A stretch of 64,000 nucleotides of DNA from Aldrovandia affinis (lineage: Eukaryota > Chordata > Actinopteri > Notacanthiformes > Halosauridae): the NCBI GenBank assembly GCA_029706075.1, contig JAINUG010000048.1, forward strand, positions 4,520,501 through 4,584,500, written 5' to 3'. Both the position numbers and the translations under genes were made by a program. Positions 1 through 59,068 of the stretch are shown one piece after another. Numbering within the stretch: the first letter of the stretch is position 1; each line of letters opens with the position of its first letter. The notes under the pieces are model-generated. The model saw nothing but the letters and a program-made list of their open reading frames with translations. It was not told where the DNA came from and made no database searches.

Positions 1-755
1 TTTTTTTAGCTTAACTAAAAAGCTTAACATTGTTGTTTGGCTTTTAAACATGCCTTGGACTGCTTAGGTTGGAGAAATCCCATTCACTGACATTCACCAG
101 AGTATCAGCATTCATTATCATTCATAAAAATTCATCAAAAAACCTTCATTCATTAAATACAAATGATTTTTATTATGGACCATGCAATAAATCATAACAG
201 TGCATAATTCTCTCAGTCAATTCATATCAGTTTTAAGCATCGATTTTGTAAAGTTTACGAGTTTGAAATGAATTAATTGTGCTATGAAGGGCTTATTAAG
301 ATGTTATGAATGGCATAAGACCCCAAATGTATCAAAGTCCTAGTTTACAAAAACTATACTCTCCTAAAACCTTCATAAAGCATGTATAATGCCTTAATCA
401 ACATGTCTTAACATCTTTATAAACAGTTCTTAAGGAAGTACTTTAAATAGGATGAAATGGCATATTACGTAAGATGCTATTTTATAAACGTCACATAATA
501 TAACAATGTACTTCTATATACATACTTAAGAAAGTTGGAGTGGTAATGAATGTGTCATACACATTGATATATATATATATATACCTATAATATATTATAT
601 TCCTTAAGCATATGTCCAACAAGCATACGTCAAGTTAATTGTGACTAGTATTACCAAAGATTAACCTGTTAACTGGTAGTGAGTTTGTGAGGTAAATGGT
701 TAGACGTTGGATCATTATCACATGGATTTTGGCGTTGTTTGTCATTTAAAGTATC

Positions 756-822
<67 letters not shown>

Positions 823-1588
823 CTCACACAAACACATGCACACTCACACAATATCTAAACATGAATGTTTATTTTGACCTGCTGGATAGACCAAGTGTAG
901 TAGCTAGCTAGCTACAGTATGTCATTTGGGTTGTCCAGACCCACTATTTTCCATTAATGAAACTACATCTTTAGATAGCCATCTCTAAATGTATACTAAG
1001 ATTATCTCTATTCCCTGAGCTCCGACTGTCACTTTCACTATCTATTTATTTGGACATGTTCAGAATCGCAATATTTCAAGGCTTTCCCTCTAAATGAGTA
1101 ATTCTTATTGTTTTAGTCATTGACTCAGTCATGGTTTTGTTTGATTCCTTGTGGTGAATTAGCTGGCAGATAGCTTAGCAACTTCCAAAGTACTGAAATG
1201 ATGGAAAAAACAGGCGCACAAACCCAGGAGATGAAACAATAGACCAATATTATTATTGCAGTAACAATATGTTGGACGTTCTATGCCAACATTACCAATC
1301 TATGGGTTAAAGTTGTCTTATAAAAAAGGCAACAACCGGAGGAGGTAATACATGTTTACTGGTTTTGTTTTGTTGGATACAACACCCTGTGAAGAACAGG
1401 CTTGGTCGTGCAAAATGGATAAATCTGATAAAAACATAAAAAAATTGACACTTGTCAACATTGCTAATGGTAAAGGAGTCTGAATCATATTTGTAAGGTA
1501 ATTAGCATGATTCACTGAAATGTTACATTTGGTGTGTGGCAATATATCAAGAATGGTCTTTGCAATAAACTGATAAAGTCTCTTTAAC
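1..1588. other. no gene seen; AT-rich DNA with one microsatellite
   Basis: No supported coding region is visible. Roughly positions 240-660 contain repeated short themes about gradually ending tracts (cttataaa, ttataaac, cataaagc) that resemble the interior of AT-rich fish MITEs, and similar themes recur near 29750-29960. I cannot define termini, so no element is called. Confidence 0.4.
761..821. repeat. (AC)n microsatellite
   Basis: About 30 uninterrupted AC units, followed by degenerate cac/aca-rich sequence to about 850. Perfect arrays of this length are typical of teleost genomes and are expected to be length-polymorphic. Confidence 0.97.
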
Positions 1589-1974
1589 GGTTCCTGCTTA
1601 CCGCCAGAGGGCACCATTGGACTCTTATTCCCTGATTGTGTCATTGTCTAATTGCTTGGTTGTTTTATTGTCTTGAGTGATTCTACCTGTGCCTTGTTTT
1701 GTGCCCTTATTTAAGTTGCCTGTTTTCTTTGTTCTGTGCTCTGTCTCCAATGGTGATTCCCGGTGTTTGCTAGTCCTAGTGTTTCAGTCTTCCAATTTTA
1801 AGCTTTTGCCTTTCAACTCATGTTGGTTTTGTGTTAGTGTTTTATTATTTATACTTGTGTTTATTTTCCTGTTTGTTAGTTTGTTCTTGTGTTTTGAGTA
1901 GTTCAGACATTTTCATTAAATACACATTTTATTGAATATCTGCCTTATTTCAGTGTCAATACTGTATCCACAAA
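1589..1974 (+). mobile_element. Ty3/Gypsy-like solo LTR fossil
   Basis: This block begins ggttcctgctt, then a ccagagggc motif, and carries a tatttaagttgcctg segment like an LTR promoter, and ends in a pyrimidine-rich 3' half. Its first ~150 bases align by eye with 46831-46990, which lies directly in front of gag- and pol-like Gypsy pieces, so both are probably LTRs of one family. No internal coding part is present here, so it looks like a solo LTR. No clear target duplication was found. Old and degraded. Confidence 0.5.
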
Positions 1975-2513
1975 TGACGTGAGTTTACTCTTATTGTGGG
2001 GCACTAGTTAATGACTTAACATTAATAATTAATAATGAAAAGACGAGACCACTGATACGTTCAATTTGAGCTTGTTTTAATCAGTTCAAGAATGAGAAAA
2101 AAGCGACAACCTAATTTGCAAAAAACATACTATTTATTTACAAAAGACAGATAGAAGAATTATTGAAAAGGTATTATATTTTACTCAAAAACAAAGGTCC
2201 ATTGGTTTAGGTTTCTTACTGAAACCAACTTCTGGACCTCAATCAATTTGGAGGTTTCTATCATGAGTAGTTGAGTAAAGGGATCAATTTGTTTTGTTGT
2301 AAAGGTGAATCCCATAGCCCACTAGACAAATGACTGTTCTAGGCCCACGCACACTAGGTCTGGCTTCTCCAGGGAGATGATATACAACATGTGATATTTT
2401 GAGAACTCTGTGATGTGCCTAAGGCAGCCAAATGACCTGTCAGCTCAGCGCAGTAGGCTGAGACTGATGCTCCCTTTCATTCCCTTTACCTTTTCTATTT
2501 TTCAGAGTTGTGT

Positions 2514-3010
2514 AGGAGAGAGAGAGAGACGGCGAGGGAGCAGAAGATGTAGCTGGAGCTGGCGACAGAGGCAGTGAGAGCAAGAAGGAGAAAATGGGAC
2601 AGAGAGAGACAGGGATGAGGAGAAAGAGGGAGAGAATGAAAGAGAGAGTGATAGACAGCTGGAGGTAAATGGAGATCAAAAGCAAGGGGGATGGAGGCAT
2701 GAAGATAGAAAGAAGGGAAGTAATGCATCATCAGTAGGAAGAGTTAGAAAAAGAGTGAAGCAGCTAAAGGGGAGGAGAGAGAAACAGGCAAAATAACTGA
2801 AGGGAAATAATGAGAGACTGAGAGAGCAAGAGGGAATGATAGAGTGATATTGAAAAAGGGTATGCCAGAGCAAGGGATAGAGACATTAAGGAAGAGAGTG
2901 AGAAGCAGGAGGGTAAGAATGACAAAATGAGAAAGAAAGTCACTAAGATAGAGGCAGAGAGAAAGATGGAGGTAACAAAAACACAGCAAGAGAAAATGGG
3001 TATAGGAGAC
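2514..3010. repeat. purine-rich (GA-rich) low-complexity tract
   Basis: About 500 bases in which the plus strand is overwhelmingly A and G (gagaga, gaagga, gggaga themes) with few pyrimidines. The open frames on the minus strand here (Ser/Leu/Pro-rich) are by-products of this composition and are not genes. Such homopurine strands can adopt triplex (H-DNA) structure. Confidence 0.85.
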
Positions 3011-4758
3011 TAGTTTGAGACACCAAAGACACATAACCTAGCCCTAATACATAATAAACAAAGAATGCATATCAGAATAGAGGGCAGGTTTTATAGCACT
3101 TTTAACAAAAAGAAGAAGCAATAATTTCTCAAATTTAGGCATATTTTTCTGAACTCTGCTCTGAAGTTAATACACTGCCAGCACCAGCATGCAGTTGTTG
3201 TGTTTATTTTGCCTGTGCAATTGAATGAATGGAATGAAATCATACTGTTCAATATTCAGGCTATATAGCCATCAGGAATGTGTGAGTAAGATTAACTGCA
3301 TGCAACGGTAGGAGAGACATTGCATAGGCCTCATTTAGATGTGAATAATTCATGTTTGGGGTGTTTTGGGGTGAGGGTGAATGTGGGCAGACATGTCTGT
3401 GTGTGTGAGAGAGAGTGGCAGAGTGAATGTATGCGTATGAATGTGTTTTCTTGTGTGCATTTTGTGGTGTGTGTGTACATTTATGTTTGTGCATCATGTC
3501 CCATAGATGTGGACATGGGGGTCAACAAGACAGGGCTACCAATGGCTGGGGGAAGGAAATAATATGCCATTCTGGGATGACCTTGCCACCCTCTAATGGC
3601 TGCTAATGGAATTGAATCCCCAAGGTGTGTTCTAATCCCAAAGGGTTTATGGAAAAGAGACAGAATATGTAAATCTAAGCCAAGAGAATTACCCATTTGA
3701 GGAAGCCACATGTCTGTGACTGACAATCTGACTGACTGCTGACGCATAGGACACATTAGATGACTAAGAAATCAAGTCATATTTATCATTTATTTACCTT
3801 TTAATGGAATTAAATGCCATGGTCTGTTCTGCCTGTTATTTTCTCTTGCAACAATTTTCTATTGCAGTTGAGGTGTGGGGTAAGTTTTGTTTAGCTCACC
3901 TCACAATGCTATGTAACCTTGAATAACTGACATGAGAGACTCATTTTGCAATCAAAATAATGTTGCTGCATATGATTTCAGAGCAGTGACATTCTATTGG
4001 AGATTATAGCTATAGAGTAATATCTTGGGCCTTTTTATTAAATAACTGCAATGGAAGATGTACTGCTTAATGGGACTGTGCCAGGTCCTGGGAAGCCAGG
4101 TTGTCTGCACTCTGAAGCACAAAGCAAAATAAAATAGCCATAAAAGGTGAAAGAGTTTTGCGATATCCAGGGAAGTGGCCTCATTCAGAGGGTAGTGCCC
4201 TACCAGAAAAAAAGAAAGAAAAATGAAATCCTCATTGTCCTATTACTGTCTATCTCCTACCTTTATCAAATCAAAGTAGCCTATTTGTAAAAAATAATAA
4301 TAATAATTCTCTGAGGTTTGGTTGATGTTGAGCACAATGCGTGCTTGGCTGACTAATTTGGCAGTTTTTTCCTTGAGTGCCTTGGCTGGCTTGGGGTTAA
4401 AAATGGCAATGCGCATGCTCCATATATTCCCCTCCACCCCTAGTGGTATAAAAATGTATAACCACCAGAGAGACTAGTGCAGGATTTAAGGAAAACTCAC
4501 CACCGACTATAATGTGAATGTTAGGCATATTCTGCTTCCACTTGTGTGCCTATGGATATTTTTTAATGAATGTGCCCCACTGGAATTTTTATGATAGAAA
4601 CACTACTGGCTATATTGCTTTTACCCATAGGGGAGGAAGAGCAGGGGGATTCATTTTATAGTAACTAGTTCATGGGTACACATGAACATACATAATATGT
4701 TTCCCACTGTTAACTGTCTCCCACTGTACAATGTTTTATGTCTTTCATGTGTTGAGGT
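3011..4758. other. no gene seen
   Basis: Ordinary AT-rich sequence. There is a degenerate GT-rich stretch around 3390-3490 and a short (AAT)n run near 4290-4306. No transposon termini, splice-flanked exons or RNA genes could be supported. Confidence 0.5.
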
Positions 4759-5013: not shown

Positions 5014-5691
5014 TTGCCATGTCGAACATTAAACTTCATTGAACTTTTACATGTTATTGGCAAGTTTGACAAAACTGTTGCGCAAAAAATATCAGACAAT
5101 CCCAGAAATGCGAAGTATACTCACCATGATGTACAGAACGAGTTAATTGATATTATGGCAAATATAGTTAGGGAGCAAATAAGTAGTGAAATAGAGGAAG
5201 CTGGACTGTTTGCATTGATAGTCGACGAAAGTAAGGACGTCAGCAAAAAAGAACAGGTGTCTGTGGTGGCACGCTATTTGCTCAATGATGTTGCACTGGA
5301 AGAATTCCTACATTTCATTCCAGCTGATGGATTAGATGCTGATTCACTTTTAAAAACAATCAAACTGACACTTAATAAATGCAACATTGACCACAATACG
5401 TGCATTGCTCAATGCTATGATGGCGCAGCCGTCATGCCAGGCTGTCATAACGGTGTAGCAGATAAACTGAGAAAAGATGTCCCACAGGCACTGTATATCC
5501 ATTGCCACGCTCATCGTCTAAATCTTGTTTTGGTGGACTGCGTTAAAAACCGGCGGCAGAGTTCTTTGAATCAGTGGAGGTGCTGTACAAAATGTTTTCG
5601 GGCTCCGTCCCTCATGATCTTTTCCAAAAAAACAAAAGAAATCAAGCCAACACAAGCTCCCGTTGATTTTGTAATGAGTGAGATGGTCTAA
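5014..5691 (+). pseudogene. hAT transposase fragment (DUF4371-like)
   Basis: The translation matches the hAT-type transposase region found in ZMYM1-, KIAA1586- and ZBED-like proteins. Visible hallmarks are LFALIVDESKDVS, which carries the first acidic residue of the RNase-H-like core, then QCYDGAAVMPG and the HCHAHRLNLVLVDCV block. Homology ends near 5555, after which the frame runs into unrelated sequence. The C-terminal catalytic and dimerisation parts are missing, so this cannot be an active enzyme. There is no ATG at the left edge; the coding similarity simply starts within the element. Family knowledge: such enzymes cut and paste DNA with 8-bp duplications, which agrees with the flanks seen here. 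Confidence 0.85.
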
Positions 5692-6988: not shown

Positions 6989-8827
6989 TGTCATGGTTTA
7001 GTGCCTGTTTAGCCCTGTGTGGGCGTACTCCTTTTCTATCCTCGTGAGTACGTTCCTGCTCATCTCCATATCTAATCAGCGGATTGCAGTGACGTGCGGT
7101 GAGGTCAATGGTTGGGGAGGCACTGGAGATCAGAGTAGGGCGACCAGATTTTCAGAACCTCAAACCTGAACACTTTGTAGGCTATATATGAACGCGCCGC
7201 ACGTGCACGCGCACCGAAAATGCAGATCTACAGTGCTATTATACAATGTTTTAATACAGATAACATAAACATTCTGATTTTCACACCAAATAACCCGCCC
7301 CAATTATTAAAAAAAGACGTTATATCTCACGGCGAGGACCGGAGGGGCATTCCTACCGACCCCTGGCCTCGGCTATGTAAGCGCTGAATAACGGGAAAAT
7401 TTGAACATGATTGTTAAAAAACGGGAAAAATATAGCTGATTTTAGATGCAATTCACTTTCGTTTTAGTTAGTTTTGTGTCGTTCATTGTAGATTTTATTT
7501 TCATTTCAGTTAGGCTATTTCCACTGCTATTACTTTGTTATAATCCTCACACACGCACAAGTTAAAGTGAAAATATTGCTTAGCTTACCTTTACTTGTAA
7601 ATGAAGTCCATTCGCCTTTCTTTCTCAGTTTAGAAATCAAATCCTCCATTTTCAGAGCGAAAAATCTGTGCATTTGTTTGGTTGTTGTTCTTTTAACTTT
7701 GGCAAGAGTAAACCGAGTCATAAACTTCAGGCTCACTATCGCCCCCGTCTGTGAGGCAGAGGTACTGGCTGCCTCAAGGCAAGCCTTTTCCTTGTGGATT
7801 TATGTCAGATCAATAAGACTTAAATATTACACACATACGTGAAATACATTACCGAACACTATGGAAATTAAGACGTATAATAAAAGTGTCTTCAAACATG
7901 ATATTGGAAACATACAGAGAAATGGCAACAAGCACGCGCCAATTGCACGCGCTCAATTTAGTTTGTGAGGGATTGCGCAATCTGGGGAGAGGCTCGGCTC
8001 ATCACTGCCTCACCTCTCGTCTCTCTGTTGTATTTGAACAGGAAATACAGAATTTCAGCGATTTTGACTATAAAAACGATCAAAACTTATAGGAACCACA
8101 CCAAAATTGCATTGAAAGCACAGACGAGTGGACAAACATTAATACTTATTTTATTTTATTATTTCTTTTTTTACTTCTCATGAAGACAGGTGAGGCTCTG
8201 CCTCACCTGCCTCCCCTGACCGCACGTCCCTGGCGGATTGTTTTCAGGTGTTCACTGCCTACTTCAGTTCGCTGCTTTCACTACTCCGTGCTTCAGTGTC
8301 TATTCATTTGGCGTTGAAGCCGGTACGGTGTCAGTCTTAAATTTAAAAAAAAAAATCACTTTAGCTTTCTCGCCACTTCTACGGAAGTCTAGCTTTTCTT
8401 ATTTTGTTTGGTCTGTGTTTCGGGGTTACTTATGGCAGACCCATGGCACTTATTTTCGCTGTTCTTTTTCCTAAACTGCGTCTTATTCTGGGTTCTATTC
8501 CAGCTTTGTTTTCTTTTTGCTTGTGTTGCGACGCAAGTTATTTTATTTCCTTTTTCCTCTGCGTGTGGTGTTGGGCTACACGCCAGAAATTTCTGTTTGG
8601 TTTTACTATCGTTCGGTACCGTTCGTGGACCGCTTTTATTCGCCCTTTTTAGGGGTAGTTATTATTTCGTATTACGCTGGTAGTTTTATTTTTTTTCTGT
8701 GGCGATTCTCGTGGGTTAACGCCCCTTGCTCCCTATTGTGTTTTAGTGACATCCTGATTGTTCAGGAGTGTTTCTGATCCTTATTCCCCATTGGTCGCAC
8801 TTGGGCCTCACCCCTACAAGCCCTCAC
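6989..8827 (+). mobile_element. Gypsy-like LTR fossil split by a hAT insertion
   Basis: The outer parts (6989-7086 and 8241-8827) read as one long-terminal-repeat-like unit starting tgtcatggtttagtg and ending near ccctacaagccctcaca. The right half contains pyrimidine-rich and tattccccattgg segments common near the 3' end of fish Gypsy LTRs. The hAT at 7087-8232 interrupts it, so the LTR is older than the hAT. No gag or pol sequence is attached, so it looks like a solo LTR. Outer target duplications are not clear, and the right boundary is approximate. Confidence 0.45.
7087..8232. mobile_element. non-autonomous hAT transposon with perfect 8-bp TSD
   Basis: The element starts CAGTGACGTGCGGTGAGG and ends in the complement of CAGGGACGTGCGGTCAGG, so the terminal inverted repeats match at about 16 of 18 positions. 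It is flanked by identical 8-bp duplications gcggattg at 7079-7086 and 8233-8240. Subterminal DNA on the right is a tgaggctctgcctca palindrome. Length is 1146 bp and no transposase similarity is visible in either strand, so it must have been mobilised by another hAT. The perfect duplication suggests it is younger than the 4.8 kb and 20.2 kb hAT copies. Confidence 0.92.
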
Positions 8828-8885
8828 ACTTGAAGGATCTCTTAACCGCTGTTAACACCGTATAGTGGTGCAGCTTAGCTAGAAA

Positions 8886-9027
8886 TTCCATAAGGATTGT
8901 GCATTTTGTGATAAAAGCATGAAATTTGGTACACATATAGTTAAAGGCATTCCAAAAAGATTTAGATGTGGAGCCATCATGAATTTTCAATATGTCGCCT
9001 ATGGCAACCAAAATGGCCGCCATTGGT
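8886..9027 (-). repeat. inverted single copy of the ~146-bp repeat unit
   Basis: Read on the minus strand this is ggcggccattttggttgcc, then gcgacatattgaaaattcat, then cttttatcacaaaatgcac, matching each unit of the 11208-11650 array at roughly 80-90 percent by eye. It lies in the opposite orientation about 510 bases upstream of the PIN/CXC reading frame. A further partial match (aagatggcggccatgac) is at 9152-9168. Together with the array it forms an inverted-repeat bracket around that gene. Confidence 0.8.
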
Positions 9028-9539
9028 CACTATTGATAATTCTTTCTGATAAATGTTCTTATCAGGGATGGAAATGTAATGATATTGAGGACATAAGCTC
9101 AATTTATCTAGTATACATAGTTCTTATGAATTGACATTTGGATAATACAATTTTCAAGATGGCGGCCATGACTGGTATGACAATTGTAATTGCAATAAAG
9201 TTGCATAGATTATTTTGATATGGATGATCTCGGGTCAAATTATACATAGGCCTACAATTTTATGATTCAGACTTCAAATTTGCAACTATAGAATTACAGA
9301 GAAGCTGCATTTTATCATATAATTCAAGAAGATCTTTTTTATGTGGTGGCCAACATAGAAATTGTAATTCCAATAAAATAACACGAAAGTCCAATAAACT
9401 CACAAGTCTGCAAAATGAAGAATAATTACTGTACATGTGGCTATGTTTTACAGAAAATAGTACAGTAATAGAGTGGATGTCAAAGCACAGCCAGGGCACA
9501 CTGGTGACACCACTGCTGTGAAACTCAGCATGGGGTTCA

Positions 9540-10616
9540 GTGTCAGTGTGGGACCGCTACTTGTCTGAATCTTTGAAAGCTGCTACAAGAGCAAAGTGTG
9601 GGAAAGGGGTGCAGAGACGTGTGGTAGGTACTGCAGCCATTCCCAGGAACTGGCAATACTTTCTCAGAGTTGACAGCAATAAGACTGAGTTGTTCACCTT
9701 ACTCTCAGATGCTCTGCTTAGATGGTTTGTGCAGGAAGACAAACAGCTTGTTGTCACACATGATGTGGAAGTCTTCAGCAAGCCACAACTTCCAGATCCG
9801 TCTTCAGTTGCTCCATGTACACACGAGGAAGCTGATAGTCGCATGTTATTACATGTGGCCCATGCAGCAAGAAATGGCCATCAGAAAATCATGATTCAAA
9901 CTGTTGATACTGATGTTGTGGTGATGGCTGTGGCAGTGGCTCAGGGTCTACACCCAGAAAATGAGCTTTGGTTGGCATTTGGAACTGGAAAGAATTTCCG
10001 ATACCTTGCAGCCCATGAAATTGCAGCAGGGCTAGGGCCTGAAAAGGCACGTGCTCTTCCCATGTTCCATGCATTGACGGGCTGTGATACTGTATCAAGC
10101 TTTGCTGGCCACGGGAAGAAGACAGGGTGGGCTGTTTGGGCTGTCTTTCCTGAGCTGACACATGCCCTGCTGAAACTATATTCTGCCCCGGACGACATAC
10201 CACAAGAGGTAATGGTCACAATCGAGAGGTTTATTATCCTTCTTTATGACCGAACCAGCACATGCAAAGAAATAGACAAGGCACGGAGGAAGATGTTTGC
10301 GAAGAGGCACAATGTGCTGTCAATCCCTCCAACAAAGGCTGCCTTAGAGGAGCATGTGAAGAGAGCAGTGTATCAAGGAGGCCATGTGTGGGGTCAGATG
10401 CTAGTGTCCACACCAAAACTACCTTCACCGTGTAGATGGGGATGGTCAAAGACATCTGAGGGGTACGAACCCTTCTGGACATGCCTACCAGATGCAGGCC
10501 ATTCCAGCTATGAACTTGTCTCTTGCAAATGTAAGAAGGGTTGTGTTAAGCAGTGCAAGTGCAAAAAAGCTGCATTAGACTGCACAGCCCTCTGTTGCTG
10601 TGAAGGGGAGTGCTAA
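9540..10616 (+). CDS. PIN/FEN1-like nuclease with C-terminal CXC cysteine motif, 5'-truncated
   Basis: A 358-codon uninterrupted frame ends at TAA 10614-10616. The frame is open from 9522, just after a stop, and the first in-frame ATG is only at residue 102, so the true N-terminus lies elsewhere: either an upstream exon (acceptor-like ttcag at 9536-9540) or lost sequence. Motifs: THEEADSRM (94-102), TVDTDVVV (121-128) and LTGCDTVSSFAGHGKK (179-194). Their acidic residues and Gly-rich helix-hairpin-like segment fit the PIN/XPG/FEN1 nuclease fold. Residues 329-358 form a CKCKKGC...CKCKK...C...CCC cluster like the CXC domains of tesmin/TSO1-type DNA-binding proteins. I recall very similar uncharacterised proteins as multi-copy families in fish and cnidarians, which suggests a mobile-element origin. 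Inverted copies of a 146-bp repeat flank it on both sides. An ATTAAA signal at ~10786 could serve for polyadenylation. Nuclease activity is inferred only from the pattern; the CXC call is firmer. Confidence 0.72.
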   Translation: MSVWDRYLSESLKAATRAKCGKGVQRRVVGTAAIPRNWQYFLRVDSNKTELFTLLSDALLRWFVQEDKQLVVTHDVEVFSKPQLPDPSSVAPCTHEEADSRMLLHVAHAARNGHQKIMIQTVDTDVVVMAVAVAQGLHPENELWLAFGTGKNFRYLAAHEIAAGLGPEKARALPMFHALTGCDTVSSFAGHGKKTGWAVWAVFPELTHALLKLYSAPDDIPQEVMVTIERFIILLYDRTSTCKEIDKARRKMFAKRHNVLSIPPTKAALEEHVKRAVYQGGHVWGQMLVSTPKLPSPCRWGWSKTSEGYEPFWTCLPDAGHSSYELVSCKCKKGCVKQCKCKKAALDCTALCCCEGEC

Positions 10617-10721
10617 ATAGACTTTGATGTGATAGACCCTATATTTGGCGGGTCATTGTTATCACTTATTTTGAGTCTTAAATTGTAGCTTCTGAGCAAT
10701 TCTGAATTTCCAAATTCAAGT

Positions 10722-10812
10722 TCTGAATCATAAATCCTGATGATGGTCAAGGACCAAAACGTTGTTCTCAGCATGTGTAATTTGTATTAAAGTTCAGCAC
10801 TCAGCAAGTTTA
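10722..10812 (+). repeat. LINE/Penelope-like 3' end remnant
   Basis: The sequence tgatgatggtcaaggaccaa then aacgttg and tgtattaaagttcagcactc is a recurring interspersed-repeat ending in vertebrate DNA: a short imperfect dyad (ggtcaaggacc) followed by the gaaacgttg-type box. A weaker relative lies at 48488-48545. The family is not certain. Confidence 0.35.
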
Positions 10813-11027
10813 GACGCTTTGTGGGTGTCCTTCCCTTTTCAAGTTCTATATAACAAAACAAATAACAAAAAAATAATAATAATAATAAAAATAATATAAA
10901 AAAGAATCGGGGGAGACAAAGACAGCCTCTACGTGGCCTCCCCTACGAGTAGCTTAAAGGCCCAAAAGCCTACAAAAGTGAAACTAATGTCTTTAACACA
11001 TCTGCAGACCGCAAAAAGCCAAGCTGG

Positions 11028-11105
11028 TTTAGCGCTACTGCAGCTCAACATTGAAGGCCTTCACGCTGCTAAGGTCAATGTTATCAAACAGATTGCCGGA
11101 CCTGG
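11028..11105 (+). pseudogene. possible LINE endonuclease start fragment
   Basis: Translation gives ALLQLNIEGLHAAKVNVI, resembling the N-terminal strand and helix of apurinic-type endonucleases of jockey-group LINEs (pattern LQLNIEG...K). Only ~25 residues match, and the reading frame then closes. It is either a small LINE remnant or chance similarity. Confidence 0.3.
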
Positions 11106-11207
11106 ACAATGACACAGTAGCCTGGCTCACCTCAAACGAACAGCAGGTCTAAAAGACGTACGACAGAAGAAGAAAATTGATAAGAAAACAGTTGTCACTG
11201 GTGCCCA

Positions 11208-11650
11208 CTGGCGGCCATTTTGAAAAAATGGTTGCATGGGTGACATATTGAAAATTCATGAAGACTCAACAACCAAATCTTTTTGGAATGTCTTTGGCTA
11301 CATGTGTACCAAATTTGGTGCGTTTATCGGAAAATGCACAATCGTTGTGGTTAACTGGCGGCCATTTTGGAAAATGGTTGCCATGGGCGACATATTGAAA
11401 ATTCATGATGACTCAATATCCAAATCTTTTGGAATGTCTTTGGCTACATGTGTACCAAATTTGATGCTTTTATCAGAAAAAACACAATCGTTGTGGTCAT
11501 CTGGTGGCCATTTTGAAATAATGGTTGCCATGGGCGACACATTGAAAATTCATGATGGCTCCACATCCAAATCTTTTTGGAATGTCTTTGGCTACATGTG
11601 TACCAAATTTGATGCTTTTATCACAAAATGCACAATCGTTGTGGTTATCT
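11208..11650 (+). repeat. three-unit ~146-bp tandem array
   Basis: Units start with ggcggcc/ggtggcc at 11210, 11357 and 11503 (spacing 147 and 146 bases) and end at 11650. Each has tggttgcc, gacatattgaaaattcat, tttggaatgtctttggctac and acaatcgttgtgg. Because the repeat is not an exact multiple of three, the long open frame across it (11236-11913) drifts between units and is most likely non-coding. A single inverted relative lies at 8886-9027. The last unit joins hAT coding sequence directly at 11650. Confidence 0.9.
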
Positions 11651-11803
11651 GCCCCACTAGTAGCAATTTCCAGCGCAGAGTGCGAGAGAGGTTTCTCACA
11701 AATGAATCTAATCTGCACGTCAACAAGAGCGTCTTTATCAGCAACCATATTATCGCTCCTGTTTTTAACCCTTGTTGCTCCACCACTGGAAAGTTACCAT
11801 TAG
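11651..11803 (+). pseudogene. hAT transposase C-terminal dimerisation domain fragment
   Basis: The frame reads VAISSAECERGFSQMNLICT followed by STRASLSATILSLLFLTLV, the conserved end of hAT transposases of the KIAA1586/ZMYM-like branch (pattern SSAECERGFS.MN.I.T..R..L). It is the complementary half to the N-terminal fragment of the 4.8 kb element, but the two lie 6 kb apart and I see no evidence they were one copy. It begins abruptly at the end of the 146-bp array and stops at TAG 11804. Downstream 11850-11910 is G-rich with a gagccccggc motif like the ends of the 4.8 kb hAT. Confidence 0.75.
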
Positions 11804-45105: not shown

Positions 45106-46825
45106 AGTTAAGAAATGGCTGTGTTAAAAATGAAGGTTTTTGGGCCTGATTTAAATAGGTCCAGATTCTGTAGTGCCCTCAGGTGGTCAAGGGGAGAATT
45201 CCACAGATGAGGTGCGGCTAAGCAAAAGGTCTGATCCCCCTGGTGCGGAGCTTGGTCCTGGAGGCACAGAGGAGCAGGCTCTTGCTTGATCATAGGTTGC
45301 GGATGGAGGTTTGGGGATGAGTAGTTCCTTGAGGTAGGGGGAAGCATTTCCATGGATGCACTGATAGGTCAGGAGAAGGGTTTTTAATTTGATCCTGAAG
45401 GAGACAGGGAGGCACTACAGTGAGTGCAGGATGGATGTGATATGTTGGTGTTTTCACACTCTCATTAGAATCCTGGCAGCGCTGTTTTGGATGTATTTGA
45501 GCTTCTGGAGCCTCCAGCCATGGATCCTGATAAAGACTGCATTCCAGTAGTCCAGCCTTGAGGAGACAAAGGCAGGGACAAGTTTATCTGATTCTGACAG
45601 GTTTAGAGTGGGACAGAGTTTGGAGATATTCTTGAGGTGGGAGGAGGTTTTGCACAGATGTTTGATGTGGTCATCAAAGGTCAGGTGAGGGTTGAACCTA
45701 ACGCCCAGGTTGGAAACTGATGAGGAGAGGGGGATGTTTAGGCCAGAAAAGGTGAGGTGGGTTATAGGAGAAAGCTGAACTTTGTGTGGGGTGCTGACCA
45801 AGTGAGCCTCGGTTTTGGTGCTGTTTAGTTGGAGGAAGTTGTATTTCATTTATGCCTTTATCTCCACAAGGCATGTGGATAGTGGTGATGAGGCTGTAGA
45901 GGGACTTTGGGCAGTTTTAGGTATAGTTGTGTGTCTTCAGCATAGCAATGGAATGACATTCCATGTTGGCTGATGACACAGGCGAGGGGAAGCTTATAGA
46001 GGGTGAACAGGATGGGGCTGAGAACTGACCCTTAAGGGACATCACAGGTGACAAGGTGCGTCCGGAGCTTGCAACCTCCCAATGAAACATATTCAGCTCT
46101 ATCAGACAGGTAGGACTGAAACCAGTTCAGGGCTAAGCCAGAGAGTCTGATGGTGCTGTGGAGGAGCTCGAGAAGGATGTCATAGTCGACAGTGTCGAAT
46201 GCGACGTTCAGGTCGAGGAGGATCAGGAGAGAGGGGGAGCCTGCATTGGCTACCATCAGCAGGTCGTTAGTGACCCAGAGCAGAGCTGTTTCGGTGCTGT
46301 GGGCGGAACGGAAACCTGACTGGAACTTCTCAAAGAAGTTGTTGAACTTTAGATGGTCCTGGTCCTTTTTCCAGCACCTTGGGCAGGAAAGGGAGGTTGG
46401 AGATGGGCCTGTAATTGGCCAGAACATCAGTTTTTAGAGCAGGTGGAACACTACCACCTTGAAGGGAGTGGTTGATAACTTGGGTGATCAGGGGACTGAG
46501 AGCTGGGATACACAATTTTACCATTGGAAAATGGTCTAAAGCACAGCTGGAAGGTTTCATCTTGCTGATGGTATCCTCAATTTCTCTCTGTGTGACATCA
46601 GTGAAACAGTCAAGAGGCTGGGAAATCCCAGGCTGAGGGTCAACAGTAAGGTGAGGCAGAGAGGAGAAGCTAGAGAGCAGAGAGAAGATGTTGTTGACCT
46701 TAGCTTTGAAGAAGTCAATAAAGCTGTTACACTGCTCCTCTGTGGTCTCGGTTTGTGGAATAGATTGTAGCTTTAGGAGATGGTTTATGGTGGAAAATAG
46801 CTGCTTAGAGTTGCCAGGATTGTTT
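45106..46825 (-). mobile_element. L2-clade LINE, ~1.7 kb, 5'-truncated
   Basis: On the minus strand the order is: SCALDHFPMVKLCIPALSPL (46510-46560), NYRPISNLPFLPKVLEK, FQSGFRSAHSTETALL, LLDLNVAFDTVDYDILL (RT motif A), the motif B/C region with [15 protein letters not shown] near 45925-45960, then LNSTKTEAHLV, FSGLNIPLSSSVSNLGV, HLTFDDHIKHLCKTSSHLKN and LDYWNAVF, and the C-terminal APHLWNSPLDHL. The catalytic box reads YAED rather than the usual YADD, and several frame breaks separate the blocks, so it is inactive. Endonuclease sequence is absent. The 5' junction abuts the Gypsy-like LTR remnant. Confidence 0.92.
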
Positions 46826-57814: not shown

Positions 57815-59068
57815 TAAGTACACATATGTATGTAACAAGAAGTAAGTACTTTATGTAATTACAGATGTGAAATAGAATTGTGCAACAAGAGTTGTTCAAC
57901 TAATGGATGAATCAACACGAGGAACATCCCACTCATATAAATCATGAGTAGGAAATAACTCCTGTGTTACAAAGTACAACAAACATTTCAAACATACATT
58001 TCATACAACATGTGAACATGAACATGATACCAGAATGCTTTTTGTTTATGAAAAATGCAATTACTTATCTTCAGAAAACACACACCCCTATTATAATAAA
58101 GTTATAGTATATAGTATATTAGATATACTATAACGCAAAACTATTATTATTTTTTACAAGAGTTAACCCCTGGGGGAAAATATCTAAACATCTGAAAATG
58201 TGTAAAACACATCTGACTGTAAACATCTGAAATAATCATAGTTCATCTATTTTGATGAAACTCGACCCACGATGTTGAATGTAGGAAGGCTCAAGCTTGG
58301 CCTGCTCTCCACTCATTGAGGAATGTTTGGCAATCTACAATCCGTAAAAGCTCCAAAATTAACATCTTTAAAACATCCGTGGAGTCCATTCTCCTCTATG
58401 GGTGTGAGTCTTGGGCCCTCACCAGCAAGATCACTAAGTCCATCGATGGTACCTACACACGGATGTTGCGTGCTGTCCAGAATGTTTCCTGGCAGGACCA
58501 CCTTCCAAACTCCGCCCTCTACGGTGCCCTCCCCTCCATCTCAAGTGTCATCAGACAGCGTCGTCTTCGGCTAGCCGGACATATCATTCGGCACAATGAG
58601 CCAGCCAGTCGTGTCCTCCTTTGGACGCCAGACTCTCCCCGTCGTAGCGGTCGACCTAACATCACCCTTAAATCATCTATCGAAATGGAGACAGGACTGT
58701 GCGGATCGTCTCTTCGCAATGCAATGCTTAACAGGGAATGCTGGATGAAGCTCATCAAGTCATCACAGATGTGAATGAATTAATGAATAATCAATGAATC
58801 TATTTTGAACACACAACATCAAATTCACCTTTCTTTTGTGCATCAGTGGTCTACTAGTACAGATAAACTTAATCCATCCACATACATATCCACAGCGCTC
58901 CATTGATTATTGACCCATGTTTTGTACCATACCTTGAGTTGGTTGTTCCTTGTGTTGATTCACTTGTTACAGTTACACCTCTTGTTACACAATTCTATTT
59001 CACATGTGTGTGTACTTACACAATTTAACAATTTTATGTTACATATTTCTTGTTACACATGTGTACTT
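57815..59068. mobile_element. long inverted-repeat structure around an RTE fragment
   Basis: The left arm (57815-57925) and right arm (58945-59068) are inverted copies. Shared words are aagtacacatatgta/aagtacacatgtgta, gtgaaatagaattgtg, and gaatcaacac(g/a)aggaac. The arms are about 110-125 bp with indels. The interior of ~1 kb holds an RTE LINE fragment at 58255-58774. The layout fits a non-autonomous DNA element with subterminal repeats, or an inverted duplication with LINE insertion. More ttacacatgtgtaac-type words run on to 59230. Confidence 0.65.
58255..58774 (+). pseudogene. RTE-clade LINE reverse transcriptase C-terminal fragment
   Basis: The 152-codon frame contains KINIFKTSVESILLYGCESW, ALTSKITKSIDGTYTRMLRA, NVSWQDHLPNSALYGALPSI and RRLRLAGHIIRHNEPASRVL followed by SGRPNITL, a classic RTE-type post-RT domain (LYG.E.W.LT....ID.TYTR.LR...N.SW..H..N..LYG). 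Upstream the same frame has RKAQAWPALHSLRNVW, so coding similarity starts near 58255. RT core and endonuclease are absent, and it ends at a TGA near 58772. Confidence 0.88.

Follow-up and report, generated by a model that had tools for sequence, protein, structure and literature searches.

A recently mobile, internally deleted DNA transposon in Aldrovandia affinis, most likely of the AcademX lineage, carrying the remnant of a nuclease-type protein

Introduction

The nuclease encoded by AcademX transposons is said to have been assigned to the XPG type by Kapitonov and Jurka in 2010 and by Kojima in 2020; no paper describing this XPG part was among those listed in our literature searches on Academ and FEN-type transposases. 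AcademX is described as encoding a nuclease and making target duplications of 3 or 4 bp, AcademH as encoding a helicase and making duplications of 9 or 10 bp, and these lengths are tied to the encoded nuclease and helicase, respectively (PMC10045372). Academ elements of bivalves are given a mean length of 5565 bp (PMC10294476), and the superfamily is listed for the teleosts zebrafish, medaka and stickleback (PMC4746887) as well as for Xiphophorus (PMC4705583). KolobokE and KolobokP are likewise described as DNA transposons with a second nuclease beside a DDE transposase, on the other hand of the PD-D/ExK or His-Me kind and within another superfamily (PMC9587614).

The locus presented here lies in a window of 64,000 nucleotides, the whole stretch of DNA that was analysed, from the fish Aldrovandia affinis. 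With a probability of roughly 0.83, we read window 8863-11659 as a cut-and-paste DNA transposon of an Academ-type family, most likely AcademX, that moved recently and is internally deleted (non-autonomous). Its 3-bp target duplications compare with 3 or 4 bp in AcademX, which is described as encoding a nuclease (PMC10045372); in relatives of the element a putative nuclease part and a candidate DDE part occur together. A sister element of about 5.7 kb comes near the bivalve mean of 5565 bp, a length typical of Academ in that bivalve set and not strictly defining (PMC10294476), and the fish host agrees with the known presence of Academ in teleosts (PMC4746887). The window copy differs from AcademX, with which it is compared by description and not by sequence, in its internal deletion and in a tandem array of the end unit at its right end, which is absent in the sister copies L029 and L036. 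With AcademH it shares the superfamily by name, but its duplications measure 3 bp and not the 9-10 bp described there (PMC10045372). The FEN1/XPG flap nucleases (Rad2 family) appear similar in the order and spacing of seven acids and in a GxD followed by a GxGxK-like motif; however, there is no significant sequence or profile match to them, and the part is fused here to a transposase-type part and a CXC tail.

Results and discussion

Limits, ends and genomic copies of the element

Comparison of the stretch with its genomic copies by blastn places the element at window 8863-11659 (2797 bp), the first and last base being common to the copies. The original prediction had described a bracket of inverted repeats at 8886-11650 and read it as a DNA transposon. 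These limits are too narrow, while the transposon reading is borne out by exact ends, 3-bp target duplications and unoccupied sites in the same genome: the bracket holds up and represents a DNA transposon. Its outer features are:

8860..8862, no strand: left 3-bp target site duplication GTA (from compared copy ends and unoccupied sites)
8863..11659, + strand: whole non-autonomous DNA transposon (from blastn against genome copies with common first and last base)
8863..8873, + strand: left terminal 11 bp, TAGTGGTGCAG, inverted at the right end with one mismatch
8888..9010, - strand: single left 146-bp unit, inverted, 92% complementary to 11522-11644
11208..11651, + strand: right tandem array of three 146/147-bp units (period 147, TRF score 737)
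11649..11659, - strand: right terminal 11 bp, reading TAGTGGGGCAG on the - strand
11660..11662, no strand: right 3-bp target site duplication GTA (from compared copy ends and unoccupied sites)

The 11-bp ends, TAGTGGTGCAG on the left and CTGCCCCACTA on the right, form an inverted pair with one mismatch. At loci with the right-end motif the match stops after CTGCCCCACTA (CCCCATTA in one of them), and the DNA beyond differs. In the L041 family an inverted pair of 44 bases was seen at the ends, the outer limits of which lie beyond the stretch read.

Searches of the own genome covered the Aldrovandia affinis assembly of 1,222,302,279 bases (1.22 Gb) in 2576 contigs. With the array as query, 54 matches came from the 40 scored of 158 candidates, at 88-100% identity (the best at 99-100%), which is far above chance; the frame as query gave 117 matches from the 114 scored of 1070 candidates. 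Besides the window, six copies (L010, L011, L013, L014, L015 and L021) align to the element over the whole length and in one piece, at 97.6-99.3% identity (blastn).

A perfect 3-bp duplication flanks 19 of the 20 copies with both ends in view. The first set of 18, the window included, contributed 17 of these (gta, aaa, tct, atg, ttt, cag, cag, caa, cat, tat, caa, aga, tta, cta, cta, tca and caa), and L061 (ata) and L076 (tat) supplied two more; the sole exception is L020, with cca/caa. In a sister family, the protein of which is 73-74% identical, two of the three copies with both ends viewed have perfect duplications (L029, taa; L036, cta), and the right end of the third, the long copy L039, is altered, so that its duplication is unreadable. 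As had been anticipated for a transposon, frame and repeat occur together at other loci, with common outer breakpoints and 3-bp target duplications. The many near-identical copies with exact ends show past mobility of the element, which we read as recent.

An inversion variant occurs at four places (L017, L018, L019 and L038, with the duplications cat, tat, caa and caa), where the frame-bearing core, about element bases 812-1981, lies inverted between normally oriented ends.

Insertion into a hAT copy

The flanks of the element are formed by two fragments of another transposon:

8829..8862, + strand: hAT transposase fragment to the left of the insertion; near here, at query base 103-107, the joined flanks begin to match the 40 scored places
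11663..11803, + strand: hAT C-terminal (dimerisation) fragment right of the insertion, with the continuous frame LLTAVNTVAISSAECERGFSQMN across the joined flanks

When the window flanks are joined with one GTA, the open frame LLTAVNTVAISSAECERGFSQMN runs through the junction; it resembles the dimerisation region of hAT transposases (Pfam Dimer_Tnp_hAT, E 0.0084, below its cut-off). Of 871 first-look candidates in the genome 40 were scored, and all 40 matches cross the junction (base 139 of 297) at 95-97% identity. Two unoccupied sites were read base by base. Each contains a single triplet (ATA or GTA) and no insert, and a 3-base difference is found further right of the junction. Since the joined flanks match unoccupied hAT copies across the junction, the element is inserted in a copy of a hAT transposon.

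The hAT match starts only at about window 8829, and the DNA to the left of this position is another repeat. This repeat adjoins the hAT fragment at window 8362-8828 and has related stretches (76-92%) beside copy L011 and in L075. Use of the neighbouring copy L011/L075 as an unoccupied site was rejected, as the flank repeat stops short of the junction. At window 5014-5691 there is a frame with DUF4371 (E 1.5e-13), which we take to be a part of a hAT-type transposase and which may belong to the same hAT copy as the flanks of the element or to another one.

The 146-bp end unit

The 146-bp repeat was found in the layout originally claimed, with one inverted copy on the left and three tandem copies on the right. 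Among 19 copies counted, the left-hand unit is single in all 19, and the right-hand units number three in 15, two in three and four in one. In the sister copies L029 and L036 each side bears a single unit of about 146 bp, and the tandem array therefore looks like later growth of the end unit. At C502:1732750-1734371, overlapping array matches extend over about 1.6 kb, which by length would correspond to about 11 tandem end units.

Half of the 40 listed array loci (20) lie within 3.5 kb of a scored frame and the other 20 do not, both lists consisting of scored candidates only. This pairing drew on 44 frame matches out of 117, and inspection by eye put none of the remaining 73 close to the array loci lacking a frame. 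Occurrence of the repeat without the frame had been named beforehand as a sign of coincidence, and these 20 loci could be taken as a sign that an unrelated repeat lies beside the frame by coincidence. Three of them (L076, L077 and L078) were read. L076, which shows both ends, a 3-bp duplication of its own and 320 bases overlapping the end of the frame, is an internally deleted copy of the window element; in L077 and L078 the right end only lies in the stretch read. All three look like further deleted copies. The common exact ends, the duplications and the unoccupied sites likewise argue against a chance bracket, which is refuted by the common breakpoints and to which we assign next to no probability.

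The open frame is a truncated remnant

Within the transposon, the following coding features were located:

9546..10616, + strand: C-terminal remnant of a transposon protein, comprising a nuclease-type part that lacks its first acid and the CXC cluster; as listed, the frame begins at 9540
9828..9836, + strand: codons E97-A98-D99 (motif HEEADSR), putative FEN-type acids (alignment A1; spacing in relatives)
9906..9914, + strand: codons D123-T-D125, putative FEN-type acids (alignment A1; spacing in relatives)
10080..10088, + strand: codons G181-C182-D183, followed by a GxGKK-like motif (alignment A1; spacing in relatives)
10524..10613, + strand: CXC cysteine cluster, C329 to C358 (conserved in alignments A1 and A2)

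The open frame spans 358 codons at 9540-10616 (+). A deletion junction lies at element base 684, corresponding to window 9546, and coding begins past it, from codon 3 (VWDRY); the GTG of the frame is thus no start. L016 and L061 share the same left 684 bases and then contain about 680 and 550 extra bases, respectively, with upstream coding sequence that ends in VSRLDLVWDRYLSESLK and is gone from the window. Due to this internal deletion at window 9546, the frame lacks the first nuclease acid and the whole transposase part. A search with the upstream piece returned only L016 and L061 at 97-100%, all others being at 68% or less except for one 50-residue piece at 90%; a full-length member of the window's subfamily was not among the 150 scored of 338 candidates.

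The original prediction had treated the frame as a gene. A functional or domesticated short gene for a nuclease with CXC, placed by chance between the repeats, would account for 358 open codons and for four scored copies, the window included (L009-L012), that cross the frame without a stop (L011 with a 6-bp deletion). However, the frame starts at the deletion junction, lacks its first catalytic acid and moves along with the element. Its copies at 19 loci, including the window, show three changes that make stops as well as frameshifting indels. Relative to the window frame, 10 of 31 distinct transitions (0.335 expected without selection) and 1 of 16 distinct transversions (0.172 expected) are synonymous; in these small counts from 19 loci there is no sign of purifying selection on the truncated frame. 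The neutral pattern speaks against a domesticated short gene, which we consider very improbable. Most simply, the frame is open because it is young. What stands of the original claim is the open frame itself; the frame is a remnant beyond a deletion junction, its copies drift as if neutral, and it is a passenger and not a complete gene.

A nuclease-type part recognized by its motifs

In four relatives, seven acids (D-D-E-D-D-D-D) follow each other at intervals of 43-44/89-103/2/23-24/2/56-58, as compared to 53/72/2/19/2/61 in P. furiosus FEN1, where we take the seven positions to be the metal-binding acids. In alignment A2 (7 rows) the sole invariant acids are six of the seven FEN-type ones; the first lies in the part deleted from the window. 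A second set, of 11 relatives, retains all seven wherever they are present, two positions in the decayed L070 excepted; five more acidic positions are retained by every member or by all except one. The match to the FEN-type constellation appears strong, not exclusive, and the nuclease part may be assigned to the FEN/XPG type by motif only. The C-terminal cysteine cluster predicted earlier is recovered as the CXC (Tesmin/TSO1-like) cluster, which is conserved in both alignments; Pfam TCR was weak in two of four relatives (E 1.1 and 2.2; 10.0 and 9.1 bits against a cut-off of 23.5) and gave no match in the other scan of 10 protein pieces.

The PIN/FEN1 reading of the frame thus holds at motif level and was not upheld by fold and profile tests. 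Modelling of the window protein from its single sequence (AlphaFold) reached a pLDDT of 34.0, which lends no support to a PIN fold; the model of L050 with the window protein in a two-row alignment reached a pLDDT of 36.5 and a pTM of 0.36. A fold search of the PDB with this poor L050 model gave no match at E 0.001 or better among 143, and an exonuclease at rank 5 (E 1.3) was counted as chance. Comparison of the family with four archaeal FEN1 proteins by hhalign yielded a probability of 0.1, no better than the 0.14 of a control run on the DDE part. After three fish XPG_I exons had been included, the local score of 14.85 stood against 15.12 on average for shuffled columns (sd 2.59, n=200), and the global score was 1.56 against 3.77; that the best local alignment sets GCD on GTD is noted here and not counted as evidence. 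Pfam XPG had no match in the window frame or in the relatives' proteins scanned.

Relatives, the full-length protein and classification

Six long relatives (L039, L040, L041, L029, L068 and L050) were read frame by frame. Across the overlapping frames the protein has the order: two CxxC...HxxxC motifs, a candidate DDE part, the nuclease-type part and the CXC cluster; a single frame holding all parts was not seen in the A. affinis genome. L029 contains a frame of 762 codons, and in L068 one frame of 1164 codons begins at the first zinc-type motif and extends as far as the second acid of the nuclease part. The candidate DDE motifs, picked by eye, are DNID, DQP or DE, and HEQ or IEQ, with D-D-E intervals, likewise picked by eye, of 167/222 in L068 and 211/247 in L050. 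The sister element (L039/L062) is located at about C1916:81012-86686 and has an altered base at its right end.

L050 is the one relative from 14 pattern matches in a search of genome contigs outside the own genome; two scans of viral contigs found no relatives. Its frame of 1466 codons (1-4401), open at the 5' side, combines candidate DDE motifs, putative FEN/XPG-type acids and a CXC tail. The 6.5-kb contig is filed under a Planctomycetota bin and is probably a misplaced eukaryotic contig. For this eukaryote-like transposase-nuclease frame, contamination of the bin and transfer are both conceivable.

Pfam returned no family for the window frame at E up to 5, NCBIfam gave two matches only, weak and unrelated, and phmmer and hmmsearch against PDB sequences found nothing meaningful. 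The two Pfam scans, of 10 and of 4 protein pieces, matched no helicase family. DUF6589 appeared below its Pfam cut-off in L040 (E 0.13), L041 (E 0.026) and L050 (E 0.003) and was absent in L029, L039, L031 and L042; that it is related to Academ is a guess. Against the own genome the DUF6589 profile had no match at E 0.001; as none of the 14 control genomes gave one either, this search is uninformative.

The Academ placement, which seems the most likely one, draws on layout, duplication length and element length and not on a sequence match, and the Pfam and NCBIfam scans yielded no named transposase family for the relatives' proteins. Both points would be compatible with a DNA transposon of another or unnamed DDE superfamily, outside Academ, that independently joined a FEN-type nuclease. 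However, 3-bp duplications, DDE-type and nuclease-type parts, a length of about 5.7 kb and presence in teleosts fit AcademX and Academ as described in the sources cited above, and a non-Academ origin appears unlikely to us. The original prediction had regarded the family as having no assigned mechanism; little studied as it is, it most likely already has a name, Academ, with AcademX as its lineage. The element hence most likely adds a member to a family already known and does not represent a new system.

Possible mechanism of transposition and its meaning

The deleted copies have moved without a complete enzyme of their own, and their past mobility is visible in exact ends and a 3-bp stagger. 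We hypothesize that a full-length relative would supply the protein in trans and that this protein would bind the ends with their 146-bp units. The DDE centre may cut and join with a 3-bp stagger, the flap-nuclease-type part may trim or cut the second strand or branched intermediates, and the zinc and CXC modules may hold the DNA. More tentatively, and rather doubtful at present, the FEN-type part could be a second catalytic centre: DDE chemistry would make the first nick and perform strand transfer, and the flap nuclease of the same chain would cut or trim the second strand, setting the 3-bp duplication. The tandem multiplication of the unit at the right end might have strengthened binding, to the advantage of the deleted copies.

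If this two-centre enzyme were true, it would amount to cut-and-paste transposition by one enzyme that uses two different nuclease chemistries; already participation of the nuclease in cutting would make for an unusual transposition chemistry. Predicted proteins of this type carry the label 'uncharacterized' in many genomes of fish and invertebrates. As frame, ends and duplications are tied together, such proteins are here parts of a transposon. The element is a clean case, ordinary in kind, and its near-identical copies, exact ends and unoccupied sites make a flap-nuclease-bearing transposase, as the motifs suggest it to be, accessible to bench testing.

Elsewhere in the window, frames at 45454-46427 (-) and 58316-58774 (+) resemble, by eye, pieces of LINE reverse transcriptases.
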